Below are positions 26,662-50,769 of a DNA stretch of 64,000 nucleotides, in pieces. Below the pieces are notes generated by a model. The model was not told the origin of the DNA. It worked only from the letters and a program-made list of their open reading frames with translations, and ran no database searches. The translations under genes were made by a program, and so were the position numbers. Position 1 is the first letter of the stretch. Every line of letters starts with the position of its first letter. The stretch is from Deltaproteobacteria bacterium (lineage in GTDB: Bacteria > Myxococcota_A > UBA9160 > UBA6930), in NCBI GenBank assembly GCA_029261795.1, contig JAJDAP010000022.1, positions 1 to 64,000 on the forward strand, in the 5' to 3' direction.

Positions 26662-28128
26662 TCAGGACGCGTCGGAAGGGAGCACCGTCACGGTAGCTCC
26701 CCGCATCGGCGCCTGATCGAGGTGCGGGAGGCACAAATACTCGTAGGTCCCCGGTTCCGCGAAGACGTGGGAGTAGCTCCCACCCTGCATCAAGAAGCTC
26801 GAGGAGAGGGGGGCGTGGGTCGGCGTCGCGCCATTGCCACTCGTGACCGTGTGCGCGACGGCATCCTCGTTCAACCACGCCACCCTCTGGCCGGCCTTCA
26901 CGGTGACATGGCGCGGCTCGAAGCGCATGGCGCGAATGTGGACCTGCGCGTCGGCGTTCGCCAAGCCGGGTTCTTCGGGCGCAACGCTTCCGGAAACTAC
27001 ACCGGGAGCGGGTGCAGCCCTGGAGCCCTGTCGAGCTGACGCCTCCCACTCCTGTCGTACTGAGGAACGATCCCCGAACCAGGAGCAGGCGCGCAGGGGA
27101 ACGCCTCCTCGGGTGACGGCGTCGGAGAGGTCGGCACAATTGTCGCTCCCAGTGCCATCCCAGGCGAAGTCGCCACCTCCGCCATAGCCTTCGACCACCG
27201 ACGGATCCGGATCCAGGCCATTGCCCGAAAGATAGTTGCGCCCGATCCGATTGCGGTCGGGGAGGGGTTCCTGCTCGGGATCCCGGGCGGCTTCGGGTTC
27301 GCCGAGACGAACCAGGCCGATCCCGACCGAACGGTTGTCCTTGATCCAGTTGTTCTCGACCAGCGTCTCGTCTGCGCCCATCACCAGCACGCCGATTCCC
27401 GGCGGAAGCTGGCCGACGATCGACACCGGGTCACCGAAGTTGTCGAGGTTGTTGCGCACCACCCAGTTCCGATGCACCCGGTTCCGGCGCGCTTCCTTGT
27501 GGATCTTGCCGGGCAGCACGAACACGAGAATGCCAGCGGTATTGTCGAACGTCAGGTTGTCGCGAACCTCGGCGTCGTTCGTGTTCTCGATCTCGATCCC
27601 GGCGACGTTGTGGTGGACTTCGTTGTAGGCCACCAGCGCGCGGTCACTGTCTCCGACGTAGATGGCGGCATCCTTGATCCGCGTGATCGTGCAATGGGTC
27701 ACCGTCACGTTCCGGGACTGGATCGGATAGACCCCGTAGAGGCCCGTATCGTCGATCTCGAGATCGTCGAAGCGGGCACCGTCCACGCCCTGGGTCGTGA
27801 CGCCGTTGCCCTTGTAGTGACGAATCGCGAATCCCGTGATCTCGAAGGGGCTACCCGACGCGATGACGCCATCGTTCAACTCATTGCGTCCATCGAGAAT
27901 CGGCCGTTGGTCGCCACGCACGATTCCACGCAACGTAATCCCAGGCACATCCACCGTGAGCGCTTCGTGATAGACACCCGGTTCGACCTCGATGATGGTG
28001 CCAGGCGTTGCACGCTCGAGGGCCGCCGCGATCGACTCGCCCGCATCGACTCTCACGACCTCTGCCAGGGCAGCGTTGGTCACGAGCACGAAAGGAAGCA
28101 GCAGCAGCACGGGCGCACGCCAATTCAT
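26662..28128 (-). CDS. Periplasmic right-handed beta-helix protein with C-terminal cupredoxin domain
   Basis: A 488-residue exported protein with a signal peptide (1-22). Residues about 30-330 are parallel beta-helix repeats (GITLRGI, GNGVTTQG, NVTVTHC, ALVAYNEVHHN) like the NosD/CASH group. Residues about 395-488 are a plastocyanin-like domain with type-1 copper ligands: His in AVAHTV and Cys, His and Met in CLPHLDQAPM. The gene directly follows the di-heme peroxidase gene with an ATGA overlap, so copper electron transfer to or from the heme protein is likely. The polymer or ligand bound by the helix is unknown. Confidence 0.88.
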   Translation of the reverse strand: MNWRAPVLLLLPFVLVTNAALAEVVRVDAGESIAAALERATPGTIIEVEPGVYHEALTVDVPGITLRGIVRGDQRPILDGRNELNDGVIASGSPFEITGFAIRHYKGNGVTTQGVDGARFDDLEIDDTGLYGVYPIQSRNVTVTHCTITRIKDAAIYVGDSDRALVAYNEVHHNVAGIEIENTNDAEVRDNLTFDNTAGILVFVLPGKIHKEARRNRVHRNWVVRNNLDNFGDPVSIVGQLPPGIGVLVMGADETLVENNWIKDNRSVGIGLVRLGEPEAARDPEQEPLPDRNRIGRNYLSGNGLDPDPSVVEGYGGGGDFAWDGTGSDNCADLSDAVTRGGVPLRACSWFGDRSSVRQEWEASARQGSRAAPAPGVVSGSVAPEEPGLANADAQVHIRAMRFEPRHVTVKAGQRVAWLNEDAVAHTVTSGNGATPTHAPLSSSFLMQGGSYSHVFAEPGTYEYLCLPHLDQAPMRGATVTVLPSDAS

Positions 28129-29162
28129 CGACGGTTCTCCAGAACGGGAAGCCCGGACGGTACCTGTTCCGGAACCCGCGGTCTCGCGCGTTCATCGGTG
28201 AGACTGTGAAGGAAGGCCACGAGATCGTGGGCCTCGTCGTCACCGATTTCGAACGCCCGCACATGGCCATGAATTCGCTCTGCGGAAACGCCGTGTGCTC
28301 GGCCGCCGCCCTTCCGATAGAAATCGATGACCTCGTCCAGCGTTTCGAGGGAGCCGTCATGCATGTAGGGCGCCGTGCGGGCGACGTTCCGAAGCGTCGG
28401 AATGCCGAACTGACCGAGCTGTCCGGCGCTACCCGAGATCGCGCCGACACCGGGATCGTCCGAGGGAACGCCGATGCCCATCGAGAGCGGAGCGTCGAAG
28501 GTGGGCAAGTGATGGCACTCGAAGCAGCGCGTATTGAGCGAGCGAAACAGCGCCAACCCGCGGCGTTCAGCAGCGTCGAGGGCAGATCGATCTCCCGCCG
28601 CGAAACGATCGAAGCGCGAGTCGCGCGATACCAAGGTGCGCTCGAACGCGGCAATCGACCGCGCGACCGTGTCTACCGAAAGCGCCTCGTCCGGAAACGC
28701 CAGCGCGAAGAGCGCGCGGTAGCGGGGGATCGCGGCCAACCGCGCCACCAGGCGGCCCGGGTCCGCGCCGAGTTCTTCTTTGCCGAACAACGGGAGTAGA
28801 ACCTGTTGCTCGAGTGAAGCGGCTCGGCGATCCCACATCAACTTCGCCTTGAAGCCCACGTTGTAGAGCGTCGGTGTATTGCGAGCGAGCGGCTGGCCAC
28901 CCCGCCCGAGCGCTGTGCGACGGCCATCGCCGAGGCCGCGATCGGGCCGATGACAATGGGCGCAGGAGAGACTCCCATCCGCCGAGAGCACCGGGTCGAA
29001 GAACAGGAGTCGTCCGAGTTCCACGCGATCCGCAGTCGGCGACTCTCCGGCTTGTTGCGGAAATGGACGCGCGAGACCGGTGGCCGCGGCCACCAGACCG
29101 GCGGCGGCGCCGACTGCGCCGAGCAGACGCAACGTCTTCCGTCTGCTCGCGCGCGGATCCAT
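28125..29162 (-). CDS. Di-heme cytochrome c peroxidase/MauG-family protein
   Basis: A 345-residue exported protein. The N-terminus has a twin-Arg-like start (SRRKTLRLLG) and a hydrophobic segment, so export by Tat or Sec is possible. Two heme c sites are visible, CAHCH (about 71-75) and CFECH (about 217). The distal helix pattern NTPTLYNVGF and the late PYMHDGSLETLDEVIDFY are typical of CCP/MauG. Such enzymes reduce H2O2 or oxidise protein side chains. Its stop overlaps the start of the beta-helix/cupredoxin gene, so they are co-translated. Confidence 0.9.
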   Translation of the reverse strand: MDPRASRRKTLRLLGAVGAAAGLVAAATGLARPFPQQAGESPTADRVELGRLLFFDPVLSADGSLSCAHCHRPDRGLGDGRRTALGRGGQPLARNTPTLYNVGFKAKLMWDRRAASLEQQVLLPLFGKEELGADPGRLVARLAAIPRYRALFALAFPDEALSVDTVARSIAAFERTLVSRDSRFDRFAAGDRSALDAAERRGLALFRSLNTRCFECHHLPTFDAPLSMGIGVPSDDPGVGAISGSAGQLGQFGIPTLRNVARTAPYMHDGSLETLDEVIDFYRKGGGRAHGVSAERIHGHVRAFEIGDDEAHDLVAFLHSLTDERARPRVPEQVPSGLPVLENRR

Positions 29163-32608: not shown

Positions 32609-33820
32609 TCAGACCTCGAGCCTCACTTCTTCGGTCCCATTCAGGAACAACCCGATCGGCCCCAGCGCCCGCGCCCGGCCGAAGGGTGTGTTGACGGCTC
32701 GGGCAACGAAGGCACGCGCCCAGCTGTGGAAGAAGCGCGTGCCGAGAATCACGCGGGGGGGGAGTGCAGCGAGCCGTTGGATCGCATCGATCTCGGGTCC
32801 TCGCTGGAACTCCACCCTGGCTGCAGCCTCGTCCAGCTCCGCGCCATCGCGGAGCACCGGAACCAGGCAGTTCGCGGCGACCACGGCGTCGCGCATCGCC
32901 ACGTTCAAGCCCTGGCCGCCGACCGGAGACATCGTGTGGGCCGCGTCCCCGATCACCAGTGAGCCCGGTCGAGCCCAGCCCTGCACCCGATCGGTGACGG
33001 CATCGAGCAGGAAGGGTCGCGAGATTTCGGAGATGTGGCCTAGCAAGTGGGCACCCAGCTCCTCGTCCACGTGCTCTACCATGGCACGACACCAATCCTC
33101 GATACCGCGACTGCGAAGATCGCCGTAGGTTCCCTTCAGGATCACCCAGGCCATCTGGAGACGGCCGTCTTCGCCGGCGGGAAACGCGATCAGCAGATGG
33201 CCGCCACCGATGTAGAAGCGGAACTCGCCCTGCGGAAACCGCTCGGGCCATGGCAGCTTGGCCCAGACGATGTCCATGGGTGTGCCCAGTTGCCGAGACG
33301 GGAGCCCTTGCTTGCGCCGCACCACCGAGGCACGGCCGTCGGCACCTACGACGAGCCGAGCCCGGATCCGTTCTTCTCCGCTTTGACCCTGGACACGGAC
33401 GCCCGTGATTCGATCCCCATCGCGCAACAGGTCACGCACCGCGGCACCGCGTAGAAACCGGAAGCTCCCGTGTGCTTCACTTGCCGTGACCAGGGTCTCG
33501 AGCAGATGGGGCTGCGAGACACTCAACGGCAGCTGCTCCAGCCCCTCATCGAGTGCCAACTCGAAGAACTGCTGGCCGGCCCGGTAGCCCCGGAACTGGC
33601 GCGGCTTGATATGCGGAATCTTGGCGATCTCGATGCCGGCCGCATCCAACATCGCGAGGCCGCCGGGCATCAGGATCTCGCCGCGGAACTCGCGATCGAA
33701 ATCCGTCTGGCGTTCGATGAGCGTCGTCTCGACGCCGCGGCTGGCCAGCAAGTAGGCGAGCAAGGCACCGGCTGGGCCTCCGCCCACCACGAGGACATCA
33801 CAGGCGTGCGAATCTGACAT
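32609..33820 (-). CDS. FAD-dependent aromatic-type monooxygenase
   Basis: A 403-residue PHBH-fold flavoprotein. The dinucleotide motif is VVGGGPAGALLAYLLASRG. The middle DG motif appears in VVGADGRASVVRR, and the GD motif in LVIGDAAHTMSPVGGQGLN. These proteins hydroxylate aromatic rings or similar substrates with NAD(P)H. The gene lies between the LLM gene (27-base gap) and the ligase gene (39-base gap). Confidence 0.88.
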   Translation of the reverse strand: MSDSHACDVLVVGGGPAGALLAYLLASRGVETTLIERQTDFDREFRGEILMPGGLAMLDAAGIEIAKIPHIKPRQFRGYRAGQQFFELALDEGLEQLPLSVSQPHLLETLVTASEAHGSFRFLRGAAVRDLLRDGDRITGVRVQGQSGEERIRARLVVGADGRASVVRRKQGLPSRQLGTPMDIVWAKLPWPERFPQGEFRFYIGGGHLLIAFPAGEDGRLQMAWVILKGTYGDLRSRGIEDWCRAMVEHVDEELGAHLLGHISEISRPFLLDAVTDRVQGWARPGSLVIGDAAHTMSPVGGQGLNVAMRDAVVAANCLVPVLRDGAELDEAAARVEFQRGPEIDAIQRLAALPPRVILGTRFFHSWARAFVARAVNTPFGRARALGPIGLFLNGTEEVRLEV

Positions 33821-35029: not shown

Positions 35030-35896
35030 CTACAGCAGATCCGTCGCCGGTTCTTCGATCACGGGGTTCTCGATCGCACCGAGGCCTTCGATCTCGACAC
35101 GGACCCGATCGCCCGGAACCAGCCAGCGTGGCGGCTTCATGGCGCCCGCGACGCCACCGCAGGTACCGGTGGTGATGATGTCGCCGGGCTGTAGCGTGAA
35201 TGCCGTGGAAAGATGCGCAATGAGGTCGAAGCAATCGAAGATCAGTTCCTTCGTGTTCGAATGCTGTCGCAGCTCGCCATTCACGATCGTCTTCAGCTCA
35301 TGGCCTGAAGGCGTGCCCCCGATCTCGTCGGCAGTAACGAGCGCCGGGCCCAGCGGACAATGCGTGTCGAAGGATTTGCCCATCGTCATGGTCGGAGAGC
35401 GTCGTTGCCAATCGCGGACGGAAACGTCGTTGCAGATCGTGTACCCGGCGATGACCTCGTGCGCCCGGGCCCTTGGCACATGGCGACAGCGCCGGCCGAT
35501 CACCAGCGCCAACTCGCCCTCGTAGTCGAGCGCCTCGGAAACCCGGGGCCGATGGATCGGATCGTGGGGCCCCGTGACCGAAGTGACTTGTTTGTTGAAG
35601 ATCAACGGAATCGTCGGGGTCTCGCGCCCGGTTTCTGCCACGTGGTCGGCATAGTTGAGGCCGACCGCCAGGATCTTCGGCGGATCCGGAATCGGCGCGT
35701 CGAGGCGGACCTCGGCAAGTGAGAGGCGCGGCCCGACGGCGGAGGCGGCCGCCTCGAGCGCACCCGCCTCCAACAGTGATCGCATCGAGTCCCCCATCGG
35801 ACCCGGCAGGCCGCCGGCGCCCAGATCGACGATCTCATCGCTTTCGAGTCGTCCGACACGGGCCCTGCCGCCTTCGCTGAAGGTGACCAATCGCAT
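35030..35896 (-). CDS. Fumarylacetoacetate hydrolase family protein
   Basis: A 288-residue hydrolase. Residues about 1-70 are the N-terminal subdomain. The FAH core starts at ILAVGLNYADHVAETG and carries metal ligands in LDYEGELALVIG. Conserved segments GYTICNDVSVRDWQ, GKSFDTHCPLGPALV and LQPGDIITTGTCGG follow. Usual reactions are C-C hydrolysis of acylpyruvates or hydration/decarboxylation in meta-cleavage pathways. It is the promoter-proximal gene of the minus-strand catabolic run ending at 30923. Confidence 0.9.
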   Translation of the reverse strand: MRLVTFSEGGRARVGRLESDEIVDLGAGGLPGPMGDSMRSLLEAGALEAAASAVGPRLSLAEVRLDAPIPDPPKILAVGLNYADHVAETGRETPTIPLIFNKQVTSVTGPHDPIHRPRVSEALDYEGELALVIGRRCRHVPRARAHEVIAGYTICNDVSVRDWQRRSPTMTMGKSFDTHCPLGPALVTADEIGGTPSGHELKTIVNGELRQHSNTKELIFDCFDLIAHLSTAFTLQPGDIITTGTCGGVAGAMKPPRWLVPGDRVRVEIEGLGAIENPVIEEPATDLL

Positions 35897-35975
35897 GGGG
35901 ATCCTCCTCTACGCGCAACGCGCGGGGCCGACTATATTCCACAACGACGCTCGCCGTTGCCTCTGAGGAGACTGC

Positions 35976-36566
35976 ATGCCGAAAGCCCCGAGTCCGGCCC
36001 GAGTACGCGGAAAGATCGCACCCGCGAAATTCGCACACTTCGTGATTCGCACCCGGAACTTCGAGCCCATGGTCCATTGGTACAAGACGGTCCTCGAGGC
36101 AGAGCCCGTCTTCGAGAACCCGTTCATCTGCTTCCTCACCTACGACGATGAGCATCATCGCGTCGCGATCGCGGCGAATCCCAACCTCGAAGATCGCCCG
36201 CTGAACGCGGTCGGCGTCGACCACGTCGCGTTCACCTACGCGGACCTGGACGACCTGTTGTCGACCTACGCTCGATTGAAGGATGCTGGGATCGCGCCGT
36301 CGACGACGATCCATCACGGCCCGACGCTCTCCCTCTATTATCTCGACCCGGATCTCAACCAGGTCGAACTCCAGATCGACGCCTTCGAAACGTTGCAGGA
36401 TTCGATGGATTGGCTGGCCACCGAGCAGTTCCAACGCAACCCCATCGGCGTCCTCTTCGATGTCGACGATCTCGTGAAGCGCTGGCAAGAAGGTGAGCCG
36501 GTCAGCGAATTGCAAAAGCCGATCGAGGGCCCGTTCCCCGGGCCCGATGCCTTCCCCCCGCACTAG
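35976..36566 (+). CDS. VOC-family protein, extradiol-dioxygenase-like
   Basis: A 196-residue protein preceded by GAGGAG. A VOC module starts at KFAHFVIRTRNFEPMVHWY. Likely metal ligands are the His of FAHFVI, the His of GVDHVAF and the Glu of NQVELQ, which together match the 2-His-1-Glu pattern. The C-terminal tail (about 150-196) is not part of the fold. Substrate unknown; related proteins are annotated as biphenyl-diol dioxygenase-like. The selenoprotein gene starts 22 bases after its stop on the same strand, so the two are probably one operon. Confidence 0.85.
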   Translation: MPKAPSPARVRGKIAPAKFAHFVIRTRNFEPMVHWYKTVLEAEPVFENPFICFLTYDDEHHRVAIAANPNLEDRPLNAVGVDHVAFTYADLDDLLSTYARLKDAGIAPSTTIHHGPTLSLYYLDPDLNQVELQIDAFETLQDSMDWLATEQFQRNPIGVLFDVDDLVKRWQEGEPVSELQKPIEGPFPGPDAFPPH

Positions 36567-36588
36567 CAGCCCCGGACTGGAGTCTACT

Positions 36589-37659
36589 TTGTCCCTCGAA
36601 CCGTTCCCGATGACCGAGGCCGCGCTCGAAGCCCAGTGGCCCACGATCGGCCAGGCCGGCGATTGTTGGAGCGGCGCCGAGCGCGTCGACATCGTCGCCG
36701 AGGCGCGCGCCGCCGAGAACTGCTCGTTATGCGCGCGGCGGAAGACCGCACTCTCACCCTATGCGGTCGAAGGAACGCACGACACCGCGACCGATCTCGC
36801 CGGCGCGGCGATCGACGCCATCCACAGGATCGTGACGGACCCTGGCCGCTTGTCCTCGCACTGGTTCGAACAATGCCAGGAGGAAGGCCTTGCCCCGGCC
36901 CAGATCATCGAGCTCGGCGGCATCGTCGCCACGGCGACGCTGGCCGACACGTTGGCCCGCGCCCTCGATCGGCCGCGACTTGCGCTGCCGCCGGTCGAAG
37001 CTGGGCAACCCGCTCGCAAGCTGCCGTCGGGCCTCGAGATTCGTGGCGCCTGGGCGCCGATGGTAGTTCCCGAGCGCGCCGAGGGAATCATGAAGACGAT
37101 GTACGAAGGCGTCGCAGGCAGCGCCGGCTTCGTCTTCAACGTCGTGCGTGCGCTGTCCTCCGCACCCTCGGCCTGGTCGCTGTTCCTTCAGACCTTCCTG
37201 CCGAACTATGCGACCAGTGGGCCGATGCCGGAGGGCGGCTTGTCTCGGGTCCAGGTGGAGCTGCTCGCGTCCTCGACTTCGGCGTTCAACGATTGCTTCT
37301 ATTGAACGACCGCACACGCCACGCTGCTCCGTGAGAGCAGCCAGCAAATGGATCTCGACCTCGACCTGCGCGTTGTCACCGGGATGGCCGAGCATGCCGA
37401 TGGCGGCGTCGAGCACGGTGCCCTGCTGCGCAGGCTCGCCCACGCCATCCTCGGACACGGCGACCTCGGCGCGGCACGCGCGGAAGCCATCGCGACCCTC
37501 GGCGAGCGAAGGACCGTTCACGCCTGCCAGATCGTGGCCGCCTTCGATGGCATCAATCGCGTGGCGGACGTGGCGGGAATCCGCACCGACCCCGAAATGG
37601 GCGAACGCGCGGCCGAAACGGTGGCGACCCTGGATATCGCGTCGATGGCCTCGCACTAG
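36589..37659 (+). CDS. Selenocysteine-containing AhpD-like (carboxymuconolactone decarboxylase family) protein, UGA 37303 read as Sec
   Basis: Read through the in-frame TGA at 37303-37305, the frame runs 356 residues from TTG 36589 (GGAG six bases upstream) to TAG 37659. The active-site motif is CFYU-TTAH: Cys236, Sec239, His243, which matches the CxxC-x3-H of AhpD with the second Cys as Sec. The frame stays coherent after the UGA for 117 codons (LRVVTGMAEHADGG and onward). A SECIS-like hairpin lies 18 nt past the UGA. The N-terminal half holds its own C45-x2-C48 pair (NCSLCARRK). AhpD-like proteins act as peroxidases or peroxiredoxin reductants. Ending at the UGA would remove the catalytic pair and a third of the protein. 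SelD is encoded at 48559-50769. Confidence 0.9.
37323..37341 (+). promoter_or_regulatory. Bacterial SECIS hairpin
   Basis: Stem 37323-37329 (GCTGCTC) pairs perfectly with 37335-37341 (GAGCAGC) around the loop CGTGA. The loop starts 24 bases after the UGA, inside the 16-37 base window usual for bacterial SECIS. The second loop base is G, as expected for SelB binding. The hairpin lies within coding sequence, as bacterial SECIS elements do. Confidence 0.82.
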
Positions 37660-37698
37660 GCACCCGTACGCAGCGCCGGGCAGGGCCGCGCGACGACG

Positions 37699-38844
37699 TC
37701 AGGCGCTCACGTCGAAGCGTGCCAGGTAGTCGGCGAAGCGCTCGAGCACGCGTCCCTCGCTGAGGCCGTACGCCTCGAGGCCGTAGTCGTGGCGGCCGTG
37801 CTTGTCTTTCGGATTGGCACCGACATGTGAGGCGAGGTCGGAGCCGATCGGGGCAACGTCCAACCCGAAGCGTTCGTAGACGCGCATCGCGATGGAGAGC
37901 GGAGCCGCCACGAACTCGTCGTGGGTCACATCGACGACGCGATCGGCCCCGAGCCTCTCCCGAACAGCGAGCCCGCGTTCGAGAGAACGCGCATAGAACT
38001 CCATCACGCGCGGACCGAGTTCGCTCGGATCGACGCCATCGACCTGACGCATCAGGGTCGCCGTCATCGAGCAGATCGATGCGACGCAGAGTCTGGGATC
38101 GCGATGGTTCCAGACGATGGCCGCATCGGGGAAGCTCTCGAGGAGCGAGTCGAGTCCCCACATGTGGGCGGGCGCCTTCAACAGCCAACGCTCGCCGGGG
38201 CGCTGCCAATCGAGCATCTGCATGTACTGCTTCTGGTGGGCATACACCGTAGTGAGTCGGTCGAGATTCGCCTGGTACCAACTCGCATAGGGCTCGAGAA
38301 AGATCTCGATGCCGTACTGGACGCCATGGAACGCAAAGAGATGCAGCAGCACGCACTCCTCGGGCGTGTCGGCGTGGGTCTGGTGGATCTTGTTCCACTC
38401 GGGGTTCGTCTCGCGCCCCTTCTCGTAATAGGCCCGGATGGCCTCGTGACGAGGGTCGGGCTGGGCTGGATCGTGGCCCTCGAGGGGCTCGGGAAACTGC
38501 GTCTCCCAGAGCAGCAGGGGCCTGGCCGCCGGGTCTGCGGCCAACAGGTTGAATAGCGCCGAGGTTCCGGACCGTGGGAGGCCCGTCAAGAACACCGGTC
38601 GACGGATTTCGCGTTGCTCGATATCCGGGTGGCTGGCCAGGACCGCCTGGGCACGTAGGCGGGTTGCCGCAGCACCCACCATCCGGTTGCGATTGCGCCG
38701 TCGGCGCTTCTCGTTGAAGGCGTTGCTCTCGTAGGTGGCCAACAGGGCGTCGAGGCCATCCTGGAACCAGAGTTCGCCAAGATCCTCGAACTCCGCCTGG
38801 GCGCGCGCCTCGTCGAGGACGGCCTTCGAAAGGCGTTCGCTCAT
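37699..38844 (-). CDS. Sulfotransferase family protein
   Basis: A 381-residue protein from ATG 38844, whose start overlaps the DUF1214 stop (ATGA). The PAPS 5'-phosphosulfate loop is FLTGLPRSGTSALFNLL. The 3'-phosphate site is near WNHRDPRLCVAS. Length and the motif WLLKAPAHMWGLDSLL match a bacterial group often found beside lipid or steroid catabolic genes. It transfers sulfate to a hydroxyl acceptor that is not identifiable. The longer open frame upstream overlaps the DUF1214 gene and is rejected. Confidence 0.87.
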   Translation of the reverse strand: MSERLSKAVLDEARAQAEFEDLGELWFQDGLDALLATYESNAFNEKRRRRNRNRMVGAAATRLRAQAVLASHPDIEQREIRRPVFLTGLPRSGTSALFNLLAADPAARPLLLWETQFPEPLEGHDPAQPDPRHEAIRAYYEKGRETNPEWNKIHQTHADTPEECVLLHLFAFHGVQYGIEIFLEPYASWYQANLDRLTTVYAHQKQYMQMLDWQRPGERWLLKAPAHMWGLDSLLESFPDAAIVWNHRDPRLCVASICSMTATLMRQVDGVDPSELGPRVMEFYARSLERGLAVRERLGADRVVDVTHDEFVAAPLSIAMRVYERFGLDVAPIGSDLASHVGANPKDKHGRHDYGLEAYGLSEGRVLERFADYLARFDVSA

Positions 38845-39950
38845 CCCCGCAACTCCGCGAGCTTGACGACCCGCGCCTGGGGATCCGGGTGTTCCTTGGC
38901 CCGGATCCAGCGTGCGCACATCGTGCCCTCGCCATGGCCACAAGGATCGAGCCAGTTCTCGTGGCCCGGGTCCTCGTGCGCCACCACGATCTGCACCGTG
39001 CCATCCTCGCGATACACCGCCGTGTGTTTGTTCACGTGGATCTTGTGGTAGCGGTAGTCGAGGCTCTCGAGCCAGTGGTTCGCCAACTGGAAGTTCCAGA
39101 AATCGCACTCGGGCGGAGCCAGTTCGACGACGAGCGCTTCATCCGGCGCCAGTTTCCAGTGGCTGTGGTAGTAGGCGATGTTCGGATCGCCACCGGCCGC
39201 GAACGCCTTCTCGTGGGGGAAGCGCGGTAGCTCGTTGGTATGCGCTCTGAAGCTCGCGGACCAATCGTTGAACAGGTTGGCGCAACCGGAAACGAAGCCA
39301 GCGGCCCCTTGCAGCATCCGGTCGAAGCGCGCGGGATCGAGAGGCCGCGGTTGGTTCGGAGCGTCGATCCGCCGGATCCGGACTTCCGCGATGCGCTCCC
39401 TGGCGTGGTCGAGACGCGTCTGACGGATCTGGACCATGCGCGTCTCCGGCGCCATCGGCAGCCAGTTCGGAGCATCGTCGGGTCGCTCACTGCTGACGAC
39501 GATTTCGAAACTGCCGTCGTCCTCGATCACCATGTCGCCGGCCTCGAGATACCCGGTGGTATCGAGGCTTCCGGTCGAACCGTAGTTGCCCGACTGTGTG
39601 CCGAAGCCGAGGTAGTGCACGGTTCCGCGGCTCCCGCTGATGCGGTAGCGGAAGCCGCCGTTCACGGGCGCGTTCAGGTAGACGTTGTCCGGGCTATCCA
39701 TGCCCATCTTCACGGTCTCGCCGGTGGTGCGTTGGAATTCCGGCGCGGAGGAATCCGAGGCTTCGACGAAGGTCTCGAGTGCGGCGCGGGTCAATCGTGT
39801 CAGGTAGCGATAGCCCTCGGCGCGTTCGAACGGGTCTTGCGGCGTCGTCTCGGCAAGCACGACCGCGCCGGCCGCCTTCAGGCTGTCGCAGAAGTCTTCC
39901 CAGCTCCGTCCGTCCTGGATGCGCTGCAGTGCTTCATCTCGATTGGCCAT
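38841..39950 (-). CDS. DUF1214 domain-containing protein
   Basis: A 369-residue protein without signal peptide. The N-terminal half (SWEDFCDSLKAAG, PFERAEGYRYLTRL) belongs to the region that often precedes DUF1214. The C-terminal DUF1214 is visible as LAPDEALVVELAPPECDFWNFQLANHWLES and HEDPGHENWLD, cut here into shorter motifs: FWNFQLANHW and GHENWLD. Function is unknown. In many genomes these genes sit beside sulfotransferases and CoA-dependent catabolic genes, as here with the coupled sulfotransferase. Confidence 0.85.
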   Translation of the reverse strand: MANRDEALQRIQDGRSWEDFCDSLKAAGAVVLAETTPQDPFERAEGYRYLTRLTRAALETFVEASDSSAPEFQRTTGETVKMGMDSPDNVYLNAPVNGGFRYRISGSRGTVHYLGFGTQSGNYGSTGSLDTTGYLEAGDMVIEDDGSFEIVVSSERPDDAPNWLPMAPETRMVQIRQTRLDHARERIAEVRIRRIDAPNQPRPLDPARFDRMLQGAAGFVSGCANLFNDWSASFRAHTNELPRFPHEKAFAAGGDPNIAYYHSHWKLAPDEALVVELAPPECDFWNFQLANHWLESLDYRYHKIHVNKHTAVYREDGTVQIVVAHEDPGHENWLDPCGHGEGTMCARWIRAKEHPDPQARVVKLAELRG

Positions 39951-40037
39951 GCGTCCACCATCCTCTCGCTGCTCGCGGAATGGTCCATTCTACCCGAGCG
40001 CCCCTGCCGTATCATTCGCGCACTCTTGGGAGATTGC

Positions 40038-40802
40038 ATGCCGAAGCCGATCGCCGTCCAGCTCTACTCCCTGCGCGAAGCAGCGGTACGCGACCTCGAG
40101 GCGACGTTGATGCGACTCGGCCGCATCGGCTTCCAAGGCCTCGAACCCGCACACTTCCATGGGCTGACACCTGAAGCCTTTCGCACCCGGGTGGAAGCTC
40201 ATGGTATGGAAATCTGCTCCTCCCACGGCATGCCGTTCGGCGACGAGGCGGCCGCGATCCTCGACCAGGCAATGCTCGTCGGGAGTCCGCTCGTCATCGT
40301 CCCCTTCGCCGCGCCGGATCGATTCCATAACGAAGCAGGTATTGGCGCTCTCGCCGACGAACTGAACGCGGCGCTGCCCCTCGCCCAGGAGCGCGGACTC
40401 GGACTCGGCTACCACAATCACTTCTGGGAGTGGACCGAACTCCCGGACGGGCGCCCCGCCTTCGAGTTGTTGCTCGAGCGCCTCGACCCGGCGGTCGTGA
40501 TCGAACTCGACGTGTATTGGGCGCAGGTCGCCGGCCAGGATCCGGCCAGCCTGCTCGCGAAGCTGGGCGAGCGCGTCACTCGACTACACCTCAAGGACGG
40601 CCCCGCCGACCTCCCGGAGTCCGCCATGACGGCGGCCGGAGAGGGCCACGTCGACCTGGCGGCGGCAGCTTCCGCGTCGCCCGCAGCCTGGCACATCGTC
40701 GAACTCGACCGCTGTGACGGCGACATGTTCGACGCCATCGAGCGAAGTCACGCCTACCTCACCGGTGCGGGCATCTCGCTAGGCCGGCTAGCGAACGACT
40801 AG
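40038..40802 (+). CDS. Sugar phosphate isomerase/epimerase family TIM-barrel protein
   Basis: A 254-residue xylose-isomerase-like TIM barrel from ATG 40038 (GGGAG site). Core strands are IAVQLYSLREA, GFQGLEPAHF, GLGYHNHFWEW, VVIELDVYW, RLHLKDG and WHIVELDRCDGD. The His, Glu and Asp at these strand ends form the usual metal site. Substrate cannot be assigned; 2-keto-myo-inositol dehydratases and hydroxypyruvate isomerases share the fold. Its TAG stop shares CTAG with the stop of the convergent dehydrogenase gene. Confidence 0.86.
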   Translation: MPKPIAVQLYSLREAAVRDLEATLMRLGRIGFQGLEPAHFHGLTPEAFRTRVEAHGMEICSSHGMPFGDEAAAILDQAMLVGSPLVIVPFAAPDRFHNEAGIGALADELNAALPLAQERGLGLGYHNHFWEWTELPDGRPAFELLLERLDPAVVIELDVYWAQVAGQDPASLLAKLGERVTRLHLKDGPADLPESAMTAAGEGHVDLAAAASASPAAWHIVELDRCDGDMFDAIERSHAYLTGAGISLGRLAND

Positions 40803-41896
40803 ATCTCCAGCACCGTCCGCACGCCGCGGCTTGCCCGCACGTCGTCGAATCCCTCGTTGATCTCCGACAGCGGCCGGCGCTGGGTGATCATCGTATCGAG
40901 GTCGAGCCGGCCGTTCTGCCACAGAGCGATCAGGCGCGGGACGTCGCGCACCGAGTTGCAGCCTCCGAGAAGCGTCCCCTTCAAGGTCTTGGCGCCGACG
41001 GTAAAGAGGGCGGCCGGCGCGATGTGAATCGCCTGGTCGATCGGGGGCGCACCCACGCACACGATCGTCCCGCCGTTTCGCGTGGCGAAATAGCCCTGGG
41101 TGACGAGGTCTGCGACGCCGGCGGTCTCGAAGGCATAGTCGACACCGATCCCGCCAGTCAGATCCCGGGCCGCCGTGACGACGTCGTCGTGTGTCGGGTC
41201 GAGGGTATGCGTTGCGCCGAGGCCCATCGCCATCTCGCGGCGTCCAGCGACCGGGTCGGACACGATGATCTTGGCGGCGTTTGCCAGCGAAGCGCCTTGC
41301 ACCGCGGAGAGCCCGATTCCGCCGAGGCCCATCACCAGGACGGTCGCGCCCTCCTCCACCCCGGCCGTATTGAGCACCGCTCCGACGCCGGTCTGCACCG
41401 CACAACCGATCACGCAGGCAATCTCGACGGGCGTGTCCTCGGGAACGCGGATCGCACCGTGGGCCTGGGTCACCGTGTACTCGGCGAAGCCGGCAACGTT
41501 GAGTCCGCGGTAGACGGCCTGATCCCCGCGGCTGAGACCCGTGGTTCCGTCGGGGAACGTGTTGGTCATGATGCCGCTGGTCTGCTCACAAAGGCTGAAC
41601 TCGGCGCGTTGGCACCAATAGCAATGGCCGCATGGCGGTGCCGGCGTGAGCACGACCTTGTCGCCGACGGCGAGATTCGAGACGCCAGCCCCAAGCTCCT
41701 CGACGACGCCGGCGGCTTCATGCCCCAGCACGATCGGCATGGCACCGCCGAGCCCATCGGCCACGCTCACGTCCGAGTGGCAGATACCGCAGTTCTTGAC
41801 GCGAACCAGGACTTCGCCGGATCGCGGTCCGCGAATCTCCAGATCATCCACGATCTCCAAGGGTTTTCCGACCTCGGTCAGAATGGCTGCGCGCAT
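40799..41896 (-). CDS. Zinc-dependent alcohol dehydrogenase (MDR superfamily)
   Basis: A 365-residue MDR enzyme. The catalytic zinc site is NCGICHSD with GHEAAGVVEELG. The structural zinc lobe is CGHCYWCQRAEFSLC. The cofactor motif is VMGLGGIGLSAVQGA, and the Asp in IIVSDP points to NAD. The length and pattern resemble the class III/benzyl-alcohol type. The substrate is not known. It ends against the isomerase gene with a 4-base shared stop region. Confidence 0.88.
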   Translation of the reverse strand: MRAAILTEVGKPLEIVDDLEIRGPRSGEVLVRVKNCGICHSDVSVADGLGGAMPIVLGHEAAGVVEELGAGVSNLAVGDKVVLTPAPPCGHCYWCQRAEFSLCEQTSGIMTNTFPDGTTGLSRGDQAVYRGLNVAGFAEYTVTQAHGAIRVPEDTPVEIACVIGCAVQTGVGAVLNTAGVEEGATVLVMGLGGIGLSAVQGASLANAAKIIVSDPVAGRREMAMGLGATHTLDPTHDDVVTAARDLTGGIGVDYAFETAGVADLVTQGYFATRNGGTIVCVGAPPIDQAIHIAPAALFTVGAKTLKGTLLGGCNSVRDVPRLIALWQNGRLDLDTMITQRRPLSEINEGFDDVRASRGVRTVLEI

Positions 41897-42012
41897 GTGC
41901 TCTCCCGGTTCGTCGAAGTGGGCGGACGATTGTAGCCGGACCGGACAGAGCGGGAAGAGCGCGCGAATTCATGGGGCGCGATAGGCTCGGCGATGGCAGA
42001 AAAGGAGCCGCA

Positions 42013-43035
42013 ATGAAAGTTCTGGTCACCGGGGGTACCGGATTCACCGGTTCGCACACGGTCCAGGCGTTCGTCGATGCGGGCCACGAAGTCCGCTTAC
42101 TGGTTCGCGATCGCGAGAAGGTTCGCCGCGTCTTCGACCCTCGTTCCATCGCGATCCCTGAAGCCGACGTGATCGTCGGCGACATCACCGACGAGAGCAG
42201 CGTCGAACAAGCCATGGCCGGCTGTGACGGGGTCTTCCATGGCGCCGCGCTCGTCGATCTGCGCCGCTCCATGGCCGGTACCGTGCTGCGCACGAACGCG
42301 CGAGGCGTCGAGCTGGTGGTCGGAGGCGCGGCGCGGCGCGGCTTGCCCTCCATCGTCTACGTCTCGAGCCTGGCGATCTTCTTCGTCCCGGGATGTGAAC
42401 CGCTACACCCGGAGATGGCGATTGCGCCCGCCACGACCTCCTACGCCAGGAGCAAGGCGGAGGCCGAGCGAAAGATCCGGCGCATGCAATCGGCGGGCGC
42501 ATCGATTCGCGCCTCCTACCCGACTGGCATCATCGGGCCCGATGATCCCGGCATGACCGACGCCAACCATGCCGTCTATTCGTTCTTCAAGGACACCGGC
42601 CTGACGACGTCGAGCGGTTTCCAGACGGTCGATGTGCGCGATCTCGCCACACTCCATCTTCGCCTGCTCGAATTGCCAGCTGGGCCCGAACGATATACGG
42701 CTGCCGGCGAGTTCCTCTCATGGTCGGACACCTACGCACTGCTCGAGCGGCTTACGGGAACCCGGGTCCGGCAGCCGAGGATTCCCGGGCCCGCGCTTCG
42801 CATGCTCGGCAGCATCGGAGATGTGGTCAAGCGGGTCTATGACTTCAACTATCCGCTCACCCGCGATTCGATGGAATTCGCCACCCAGTGGCCGGGTGCC
42901 TCCGGAAACGAGACGACGGAGCAGCTCGGTGTGCAGTTCCGCCCGGCAGAGGAGAGCTACCGGGACACGCTCCGCTGGATGTTCGAAGCCGGGCATTTGA
43001 ATGCGGGCCACATCGGCCACCTAGCTGAGGGTTGA
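42013..43035 (+). CDS. NAD(P)-dependent epimerase/dehydratase (extended SDR)
   Basis: A 340-residue protein from ATG 42013 with AAAAGGAG upstream. The cofactor motif is VTGGTGFTGSHTV. The catalytic site is SYARSK, with Ser in VYVSSLAIF. The C-terminal half (WSDTYALLERLTGTRVRQP) fits dihydroflavonol reductase-like or sterol 3-beta-dehydrogenase-like SDRs. Substrate is not readable. An in-frame ATG at 41971 exists but lacks a ribosome site. Confidence 0.87.
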   Translation: MKVLVTGGTGFTGSHTVQAFVDAGHEVRLLVRDREKVRRVFDPRSIAIPEADVIVGDITDESSVEQAMAGCDGVFHGAALVDLRRSMAGTVLRTNARGVELVVGGAARRGLPSIVYVSSLAIFFVPGCEPLHPEMAIAPATTSYARSKAEAERKIRRMQSAGASIRASYPTGIIGPDDPGMTDANHAVYSFFKDTGLTTSSGFQTVDVRDLATLHLRLLELPAGPERYTAAGEFLSWSDTYALLERLTGTRVRQPRIPGPALRMLGSIGDVVKRVYDFNYPLTRDSMEFATQWPGASGNETTEQLGVQFRPAEESYRDTLRWMFEAGHLNAGHIGHLAEG

Positions 43036-48558: not shown

Positions 48559-50769
48559 TCACCCTACCACTTCGAGCATCGGAATACGTGACTCCGCCGC
48601 ATCCAGGACGACCCCGATCGTTCTGGCCTCCTGATTTCCGGCCGCTACCAGTGCGCCGAGCAGGGCGCTCTCGCGCTCCGCGGCAATGCCGATCAGCAGG
48701 CCGCCGGACGTCTGCGGATCCAGCAGCAGTGCACTCTCGGGGCCGTCGGCACGATGCAGCGGCCCCCAGATGCGAAGCGCGGCGGCCTCATTCTGTGGAT
48801 GGAAGCTGCTCCGCAAGCCGCGGGCGAGCGCTTCACGCGCTCCCGGGAGAGCGGGGACCGCTTCGACCGAGATCTGCGCGCGGACGCCGGATGCCCCTAG
48901 CATCTCGCCGAGATGAACGGCCAGGCCGAAGCCGGAGATGTCGGTGACCGCACTGGCCGCGTGCTCACGGGCCAGTTCCGCAGCACTGGCATTTCCCGAC
49001 AACATGGCGCGATGAACCTCGCTGACCTGCGCACCACTCGCGCGTCCCTGCATGTCGGCCGCGAGCAACACCCCGGTCCCGAGCGGCTTCGTCAGTACGA
49101 GTCGGTCGCCGGGGCGAAGCCCAGCCTTGCTGAACGGAAGCTGCCCGGCGCCGAGACCGCCCAACACGGTGAGACCGACCATCAACTCAGGACCGACGGT
49201 GCTATGTCCGCCGACGAGCGAGATCTTCCGTGCGTCGAGTTCACTCCGCACGCCGGCCATCACCTGGAACAGCGTCTCTTCGGAGTGTCGCTCGTCGGAA
49301 ACCGTGACCCAGGCGAGGGCATGACGGGGCGTCCCGCCGCTGGCATCCACGTCGCTCACCGCATTCTGTGTGGCGACCCGCCCGACGAGCCACGGATCGT
49401 CGGTGAAACCCCGGAAACCGTCGACGGTGGCCAGCACGATGTCGCCACTCGGGGTCGCGATGGCGGCGGCATCGTCGGGCTCTACCAGCCCGACGCGAAC
49501 GCTCGGATCCGGTACTGCCGGTTCGAGCCGCGACAGGGCCTGGGCAAGGCCGCCGGCCCCGACCTTGGCTGCGCAGCCTCCGCAGGCCATCTCCTCCATT
49601 CCCATCGATTCCGGTGACGGGAACGCCAGGGCGTCACTGCCGTCTGGGGCCAGGACCTGGAAGCGTTCCATGAAGCGGCGATCGATCCGATCTTTCAATG
49701 CGAAAACGGCAGGACCGGCGAAGGCCATGCCCCACTTGCCGCCGAGTGCGCGCCCGCCGCCGAGGTTCAGCAGCGAGAGGAAATCGCGCTGGGGTCGGTA
49801 ACGCCGGAGGGAGCGACCCGCGAGCCGCGCGCGCAGGTTTGCGTCGAGAACCGGCCCCTGGCGCACGGCGTATACGCCGGCACGGGGAATCCACGGGTGG
49901 GCGTCCGATGCGGCGCAATCACCCGCGGCAAAGACGTCATCGTCGTCGACACTTTGAAGTGTTTCGCGTACACGGAGGAAGCCGGCCGGGTCGCGGCCGA
50001 GTGGGATGGACGCGAGCAGGGGAAGGGGTGTCGCGCCCGTGGCCCAGATGACGCGATCGAACGCGAGCGACTCGCCGGCTTCGAGCACGAGCCCATCGCG
50101 TGTCACCGCCTGGACGGTCGTCTGGTTTCGCACGGGAATTCCACGTTCGGCGAGGATTCCCGACGCGCGCCGGCGAAGCGCGCGGGAGGCGCCGGGCAGG
50201 ATCTCGGTTCCCGATCCGAGCAGCTGAATTTCGGGAGCGCTTCCGCTCGCGCGCAGCCGTGCCTCCAGGCAGAACGCCAGCTCGATACCGGCGGCGCCGG
50301 CACCCACGACGGCAATGCGTCTCGCGCCCGCACCCGCGTAGGCGTCGAGCGCTGCCACGAATCGGCCGATCGGTCGCGTCGCGAGGGCGTGCTCCCGGAC
50401 GCCGGGCAACTCGGCGCCGATCACGGTCGAGCCGACGTCGAAACTGATGACGTCGTATCCGATCGGCGGACGGCCGGCGAGTTCCAGCCGGCGGGCCCCG
50501 GGGTCGAGGCCGATCGCGGCAGCCAGGATCACCCGCGCACCCGCCCGGCGGGCCAGCGGAATGCAGTCGATCTCCAGTTCGGCCGCCTGGTAGTCGCCGG
50601 CAACGAAGCCGGGAACCATCCCGGAATAGACCGCGTACGGGCGATCCAGGACCAGCGTCAGCCGAACCCCGGGGGCCGGCTTCATCATCCAGCGGCGCAG
50701 CACCTGGACGTGGGCATGGCCGCCCCCGACAAGGACGAGATCGGACTGGATCGGATCAGCGCGAATCAG
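48559..50769 (-). CDS. selD: Selenophosphate synthetase SelD fused to N-terminal FAD-dependent oxidoreductase domain
   Basis: A 736-residue fusion. The flavin motif LVLVGGGHAHV is followed by a pyridine-nucleotide-disulfide-reductase-like domain to about residue 380 (VVGAGAAGIELAF, FAAGDCAA). The SelD domain starts at EEMACGGCAAK, with catalytic-loop Cys396, Cys399 and Lys402. It continues with VDGFRGFTDDPW, GGHSTVGPELM and the C-terminal LLDPQTSGGLL. SelD makes selenophosphate from selenide and ATP for Sec-tRNA synthesis. The start is uncertain: no ATG, GTG or TTG precedes the flavin motif in frame, so CTG 50769 is proposed (ATT 50775 is another option). The first ATG with a good ribosome site (50815) lies in another frame. 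Confidence 0.9.
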   Translation of the reverse strand: MIRADPIQSDLVLVGGGHAHVQVLRRWMMKPAPGVRLTLVLDRPYAVYSGMVPGFVAGDYQAAELEIDCIPLARRAGARVILAAAIGLDPGARRLELAGRPPIGYDVISFDVGSTVIGAELPGVREHALATRPIGRFVAALDAYAGAGARRIAVVGAGAAGIELAFCLEARLRASGSAPEIQLLGSGTEILPGASRALRRRASGILAERGIPVRNQTTVQAVTRDGLVLEAGESLAFDRVIWATGATPLPLLASIPLGRDPAGFLRVRETLQSVDDDDVFAAGDCAASDAHPWIPRAGVYAVRQGPVLDANLRARLAGRSLRRYRPQRDFLSLLNLGGGRALGGKWGMAFAGPAVFALKDRIDRRFMERFQVLAPDGSDALAFPSPESMGMEEMACGGCAAKVGAGGLAQALSRLEPAVPDPSVRVGLVEPDDAAAIATPSGDIVLATVDGFRGFTDDPWLVGRVATQNAVSDVDASGGTPRHALAWVTVSDERHSEETLFQVMAGVRSELDARKISLVGGHSTVGPELMVGLTVLGGLGAGQLPFSKAGLRPGDRLVLTKPLGTGVLLAADMQGRASGAQVSEVHRAMLSGNASAAELAREHAASAVTDISGFGLAVHLGEMLGASGVRAQISVEAVPALPGAREALARGLRSSFHPQNEAAALRIWGPLHRADGPESALLLDPQTSGGLLIGIAAERESALLGALVAAGNQEARTIGVVLDAAESRIPMLEVVG

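Follow-up and report, generated by a model that had tools for sequence, protein, structure and literature searches.

A divergent member of the AhpD-related selenoprotein family NF041238, predicted in a Myxococcota-type bacterium, and its conserved gene neighbourhood

Introduction

Selenoproteins with a CxxU redox motif of the AhpD type are represented by several described families. The one closest to the gene considered here was reported in 2005, from the Sargasso Sea selenoproteome, as "hypothetical protein 1" (PMC1088965) and appears in a 2026 review as "AhpD-related protein, NF041238, CxxU" (PMC13188914), the corresponding NCBIfam model being NF041238, "AhpD_rel_CFYUT, alkylhydroperoxidase-related (seleno)protein", an equivalog with a curated cut-off of 175 bits. 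AhpD-like 1 and AhpD-like 2 selenoproteins (COG2128, PF02627) found in Global Ocean Sampling data are likewise CxxU proteins of the AhpD type but form separate families, distinguished by the domains that the published tables assign to them (PMC2398784). In the Cys enzyme of M. tuberculosis (Mtb AhpD), the attack on Cys61 of AhpC comes from Cys133, and Cys130 is partly buried; the B. thailandensis enzyme may differ (PMC6626918). As to the RNA element, the bacterial SECIS (bSECIS) model includes an apical loop of 3-9 nt, an upper stem of 4-16 bp, G in the first two loop positions, a distance of 16-37 nt between UGA and loop and a minimum free energy <= -7.5 (PMC13188914).

Here, we compare with these systems a gene at 36589-37659 of a 64,000-nucleotide stretch of DNA (hereafter the window; contig JAJDAP010000022.1 of assembly GCA_029261795.1), for which the initial annotation had proposed an AhpD-like product with Sec and a SECIS of the bacterial type, the in-frame UGA hiding the gene from standard annotation. 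The core of that proposal is borne out by homologues spanning the UGA, by the Sec machinery of the genome and by the conservation of the hairpin; the gene is nevertheless not hidden, since a curated model exists and the literature already knows the protein as "hypothetical protein 1". Knowledge of this selenoprotein family goes back to 2005, and the window gene is a well-supported additional, divergent member of it.

Results

The frame (36589..37659, plus strand) opens with the candidate start codon TTG at 36589, 6 nt downstream of a GGAG motif (36579..36582, plus strand) that reads as the likely ribosome-binding site, meets TGA at 37303-37305, continues over 117 sense codons and closes with TAG at 37657-37659, exact to the base as initially reported. 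The residues around the TGA, C-F-Y-[UGA]-T-T-A-H, also agree with the first reading and place the prospective Sec at codon 239 (37303..37305, plus strand) of 356, as the last residue of the CxxU motif C236-F-Y-U239, an assignment that follows from comparison with homologues. Calling of ORFs with table 11 splits this region into 36493-37305 and a separate 103-codon ATG ORF at 37348-37659, which speaks for UGA as a true stop, with what follows being a gene of its own or the remains of a decayed one, and a truly decayed copy from the same subfamily does exist (L110 in genome G049). This reading is nonetheless highly improbable: a single NF041238 profile runs uninterrupted through both halves, the read-through protein reaching 352.8 bits with residues 10-354 placed on positions 6-356 of the 357-position model; GC3 3' of the UGA still equals 0.83; invariant residues lie downstream; and the stem described below is under selection. 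The family motif CFYUT is present as CFYUTTAH, with TGA 37303 at the position of U. More general models respond less: PF02627 (CMD) narrowly misses its cut-off (22.8 vs 23), and the read-through protein with 62.4 bits does not reach the cut-off of 81.8 for TIGR01926 (peroxidase-related enzyme).

Homologues continue past the UGA, and all of them carry TGA at the identical alignment column. Matches over the NF041238 cut-off were obtained in 57 of 98 related genomes, and each of these 92 matches contains exactly one in-frame TGA, as does a second family member in the genome of the window itself (C134:12272-13336). Since TGA recurs in every homologue, a read error replacing TGC or TGT at 37303 is excluded. 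Search of GTDB loci with an alignment query gave 292 related loci (a single-protein query gave no matches), and the best 80 of them all have one in-frame TGA and CxxU (80/80), even though CFYC was written into one of the two search patterns, a bias towards Cys forms; by record titles these 80 belong to Myxococcota/Deltaproteobacteria, Gammaproteobacteria, Alphaproteobacteria, Acidimicrobiia, Binatia and Thermoanaerobaculia. Some family members lie next to each other as pairs in which both genes have a UGA, in tandem in L190 (at 3217 and 4463) and on opposite strands elsewhere (G010:C12:603855-606096; G042:C80; G073:C267). One TIGR01926-like match with a TGA (C50:1185-1445) was dropped for want of the CxxU-x3-H motif.

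Most selenoprotein families include many Cys members. The expectation that homologues would show Cys at position 239 was not borne out among close relatives, Cys being confined to more distant AhpD families: 379 genomes of the phylum, 369 of the class of G379 and 397 of the phylum of G381 yielded no Cys member over the NF041238 cut-off. The lack of over-cut-off Cys forms across a sample of >1,200 genomes is unusual for selenoprotein families and suggests that the chemistry may be selenium-dependent. "Sec-only" holds for the NF041238 cut-off and this sample and is no proof, because the 2005 study, by its own definition, assigned "hypothetical protein 1" 7 + 5 homologues with Cys (PMC1088965).

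Relative to the described family, the window copy is alike in its full-length profile match, in CxxU within CFYUT, in a bSECIS directly after the UGA and in a length of ~357 residues. It differs by its divergence (344-353 bits, the paralogue in the same genome scoring 463), by the absence of the ~35-residue C-terminal tail typical of the main clade and by the conserved, catabolic-type neighbourhood of its clade.

The genome was expected to contain selA, selB and selC if the UGA is decoded as Sec, and all three were found over curated cut-offs: selA scores 503.2 bits, selB 312.8 bits, and selC is represented by tRNA-Sec with the anticodon UCA. The selenophosphate-supplying selD (48559..50703, minus strand; 262.3 bits with TIGR00476, likewise over its cut-off) lies inside the window, 11 kb from the Sec gene, and encodes a Cys-form fusion of an Ndh-like pyridine nucleotide-disulphide oxidoreductase with SelD (Pyr_redox_2 + AIRS + AIRS_C), an arrangement already known. 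Among the 98 relatives, selA accompanies the family in 56 of 57 genomes and is found in 31 of 41 genomes devoid of the family (Fisher p 6e-4), the sole family-bearing genome without selA being G007, 85% complete. The same data bear on genome-wide reassignment of UGA, for instance to Trp or Gly, which has the readable frame in its favour and nothing beyond. We consider it scarcely credible, given the complete Sec machinery including tRNA-Sec (UCA), the correspondence of the UGA column of the family to a Cys of AhpD and the ordinary table-11 character of the other window genes. A window-wide scan for in-frame TGA with coding signal on both sides listed 14 places and no other convincing case; the remaining places look like antisense shadows or same-frame neighbouring genes (the one at 32611, minus strand, lies between two genes).

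The hairpin noticed at the outset (37323..37341, plus strand) has the composition then given: a 7-bp stem of GCTGCTC (37323-37329) and GAGCAGC (37335-37341) enclosing the loop CGTGA (37330-37334), with 24 nt from UGA to loop. Every published bSECIS constraint agrees with it, namely the 5-nt loop CGUGA, 7 bp, G at loop position 2, the 24-nt distance and the folding energy of -13.1 kcal/mol calculated for 37300-37350. Taken from a single sequence, the hairpin is by itself only suggestive, with a z of -1.68, 14 of 200 shuffles folding equally well and ~1% of synonymous recodings retaining 7/7 pairs; an Rfam search of the region gave no SECIS match, only a chance match to Mcr7. Across homologues, the evidence for its conservation beyond coding constraint is overwhelming. 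In 148 distinct genes the mean number of pairs formed is 6.77 of 7, whereas resampling of synonymous codons gives 3.88 (sd 0.11); full 7/7 stems are formed by 80% of these genes vs 3.8% after resampling. An alignment of 86 rows, with the stem in columns 18-24/30-36, has 98.2% of its cells paired and 25 double-change cells vs 5.7 in shuffles, while displacing the partner by one base lowers pairing to ~28%. One stem pair undergoes a compensatory switch from C-G to A-U in 21 sequences and to U-A in 1 (22 of the 86 rows).

Codon usage within the element points in the same direction. For the Arg codon of the loop, 142 of 142 cases use CGU or CGG; CGC is absent there, although it accounts for 47.5% of the Arg codons in the remainder of these genes. 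The Ser codon of the 3' arm is AGC or AGU in 140/140. Through the C-G to A-U switch at columns 19/35, which fall in the 7th and 12th codons past the UGA, Leu or Met on one side of the loop co-varies with Gly/Ser vs Ile/Val on the other; the two codons contribute one base pair to the SECIS stem, so that pairing in the RNA seems to steer which residues occur. Since UGA, hairpin and machinery are all conserved in comparison, SelB together with Sec-tRNA(UCA) would bind the hairpin at 37323-37341 and decode UGA 37303 as Sec. That 36589-37659 encodes a 356-residue selenoprotein of the NF041238 family we hold, on this comparison of sequences, to be very nearly certain.

The active site of the AhpD type is assigned to 37258..37317 (plus strand) from invariant alignment columns and the residues of Mtb AhpD: Glu224, Cys236, Sec239 and His243 are invariant (columns E221, C233, C/U236 and H240, the first row starting at residue 4), and their spacing of 12, 3 and 4 residues is identical to that of Glu118, Cys130, Cys133 and His137 in the mycobacterial enzyme. 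Tyr238 stands at the place of His132 of that enzyme, and Tyr is also found in PA0269. Sec had been proposed to substitute for the resolving Cys, which needs correction: Sec239 aligns with Cys133, the attacker of AhpC Cys61, and not with the resolving Cys130, so that Sec replaces the reactive Cys.

The predicted structure is all-helical (AlphaFold mean pLDDT 92.6). Its best Foldseek match is D. radiodurans AhpD 6k40 (prob 1.00, TM 0.73 by target, 195 columns), although Foldseek E-values are modest, the best being 1.3e-3; other peroxidase-related AhpD proteins also match the C-terminal part. Profile matching by sequence gives E 1.6e-15 for 6k40 and 0.008 for Mtb AhpD 1gu9. An AhpD fold in the C-terminal 200 residues is thus predicted with high confidence. 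Compared to Mtb AhpD, 6k40 and TIGR01926, the protein has the same all-helical AhpD fold over residues ~150-340 with equally spaced Glu, CxxC(U) and His, but it has Sec for the second Cys, and its N-terminus is extended by a domain of ~150 residues in which another CxxC occurs.

This second conserved CxxC (CSLC; residues 44-48, 36718-36732) is lost in some subfamilies. Comparison of the N half (CSLC) with the C half (CFYU) by hhalign placed the two halves in register over 139 columns (P 0.012, probability 1.6%). Sestrin2 has tandem AhpD-like domains and aligns with the predicted protein over most of its length in Foldseek (5dj4_D, prob 0.60), yet the resemblance is one of structure and is low (rmsd 13-20 A over ~400 columns). 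These observations hint that the AhpD fold may have been duplicated, the overall layout then being sestrin-like.

Seven genes from the same bacterial order, the window copy among them, form a well-supported subfamily (SH-aLRT 100). Upstream of the window copy, a VOC/glyoxalase-family gene (35976..36566, plus strand; PF00903), whose orthologue adjoins the Sec gene in G011, ends 22 nt before the TTG and is possibly co-transcribed with the Sec gene. On the minus strand lie an FAA_hydrolase-family gene (35030..35896; PF01557), a sulfotransferase-family gene (37699..39033; PF13469), a DUF1214 gene (38841..39950), the 3' end of which overlaps the sulfotransferase frame when mechanical starts are applied, and a zinc alcohol dehydrogenase (ADH) gene (40799..41896; PF08240/PF00107). 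The neighbourhood also includes a TIM-barrel protein gene and, beyond, an epimerase-like ORF, so that the whole cluster spans 35030-43035, with counterparts in L052, L054 and L055. In G005, G011 and G013 the FAA-hydrolase, sulfotransferase and ADH genes are kept as neighbours, and the VOC, DUF1214, LLM and epimerase genes partly so. With an identity of 71-73% in these three genomes, FAA-hydrolase and ADH are better conserved than the Sec protein itself (~50%); the sulfotransferase reaches 55-57% there, and DUF1214 73% in G011. The decayed copy L110 (G049:C62:272900-274300) has suffered an internal deletion spanning the UGA region and has TAG in the remaining frame; its genome still has selA. 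Around members of other subfamilies lie unrelated genes, among them those for ATP synthase, thiolase and UvrA.

Discussion

The cluster at 35030-43035 probably represents a catabolic pathway, and because these neighbours are conserved within the subfamily and unrelated elsewhere, recruitment of the window subfamily to such a pathway is suggested. By analogy with Mtb AhpD, Glu224, Cys236, Sec239 and His243 would constitute a CxxU redox centre in which Sec239 acts as the attacking nucleophile and Cys236 resolves the selenenyl-sulfide. The most likely activity would be reduction of a small molecule derived from the adjacent catabolic cluster, either an organic hydroperoxide or a related compound that is oxidised or electrophilic, and the centre would be recycled through a donor of thiol or thioredoxin type. 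Hydroperoxide reduction is the reaction to which this analogy with moderate confidence points for the candidate enzyme, although simple peroxide defence may not explain everything, given the conserved catabolic neighbours. Another putative peroxide-related gene, which by eye resembles a di-haem cytochrome c peroxidase with its CAHCH motif, is situated 8 kb from the Sec gene (28125-29162, minus strand).

A different chemistry for a selenoprotein of this subfamily is conceivable, namely a non-peroxidase reaction on a compound of the neighbouring cluster, such as reductive dehalogenation or a Sec attack that reduces an electrophile. Retention of catabolic neighbours in G005, G011 and G013 by the seven-row subfamily is consistent with it, and so is the presence of the AhpD-fold debrominase Bmp8 among the structural matches (6ohi, prob 1.00, TM 0.71 by target), an enzyme that has been likened to thyroid deiodinase, itself a Sec enzyme. 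Bmp8, however, resembles the protein by its fold and is structurally a weaker match than peroxidase-related AhpD proteins, other subfamilies have unrelated surroundings, and no genes for halogenated substrates were recognised; we regard this reading as unlikely. A more specific proposition, in which the window subfamily is no peroxidase but would perform a Sec-dependent step (e.g., reductive dehalogenation or electrophile reduction) of the catabolic pathway encoded by the FAA-hydrolase, VOC, sulfotransferase, DUF1214 and ADH genes in uncultured Myxococcota-type bacteria, Sec being effectively obligatory in the family, is a distinctly doubtful one.

A guess made from raw sequence has become a well-tested selenoprotein call, for which homologues leave little ambiguity, and the neighbourhood of the subfamily offers a testable pathway context for a family that is biochemically uncharacterised.
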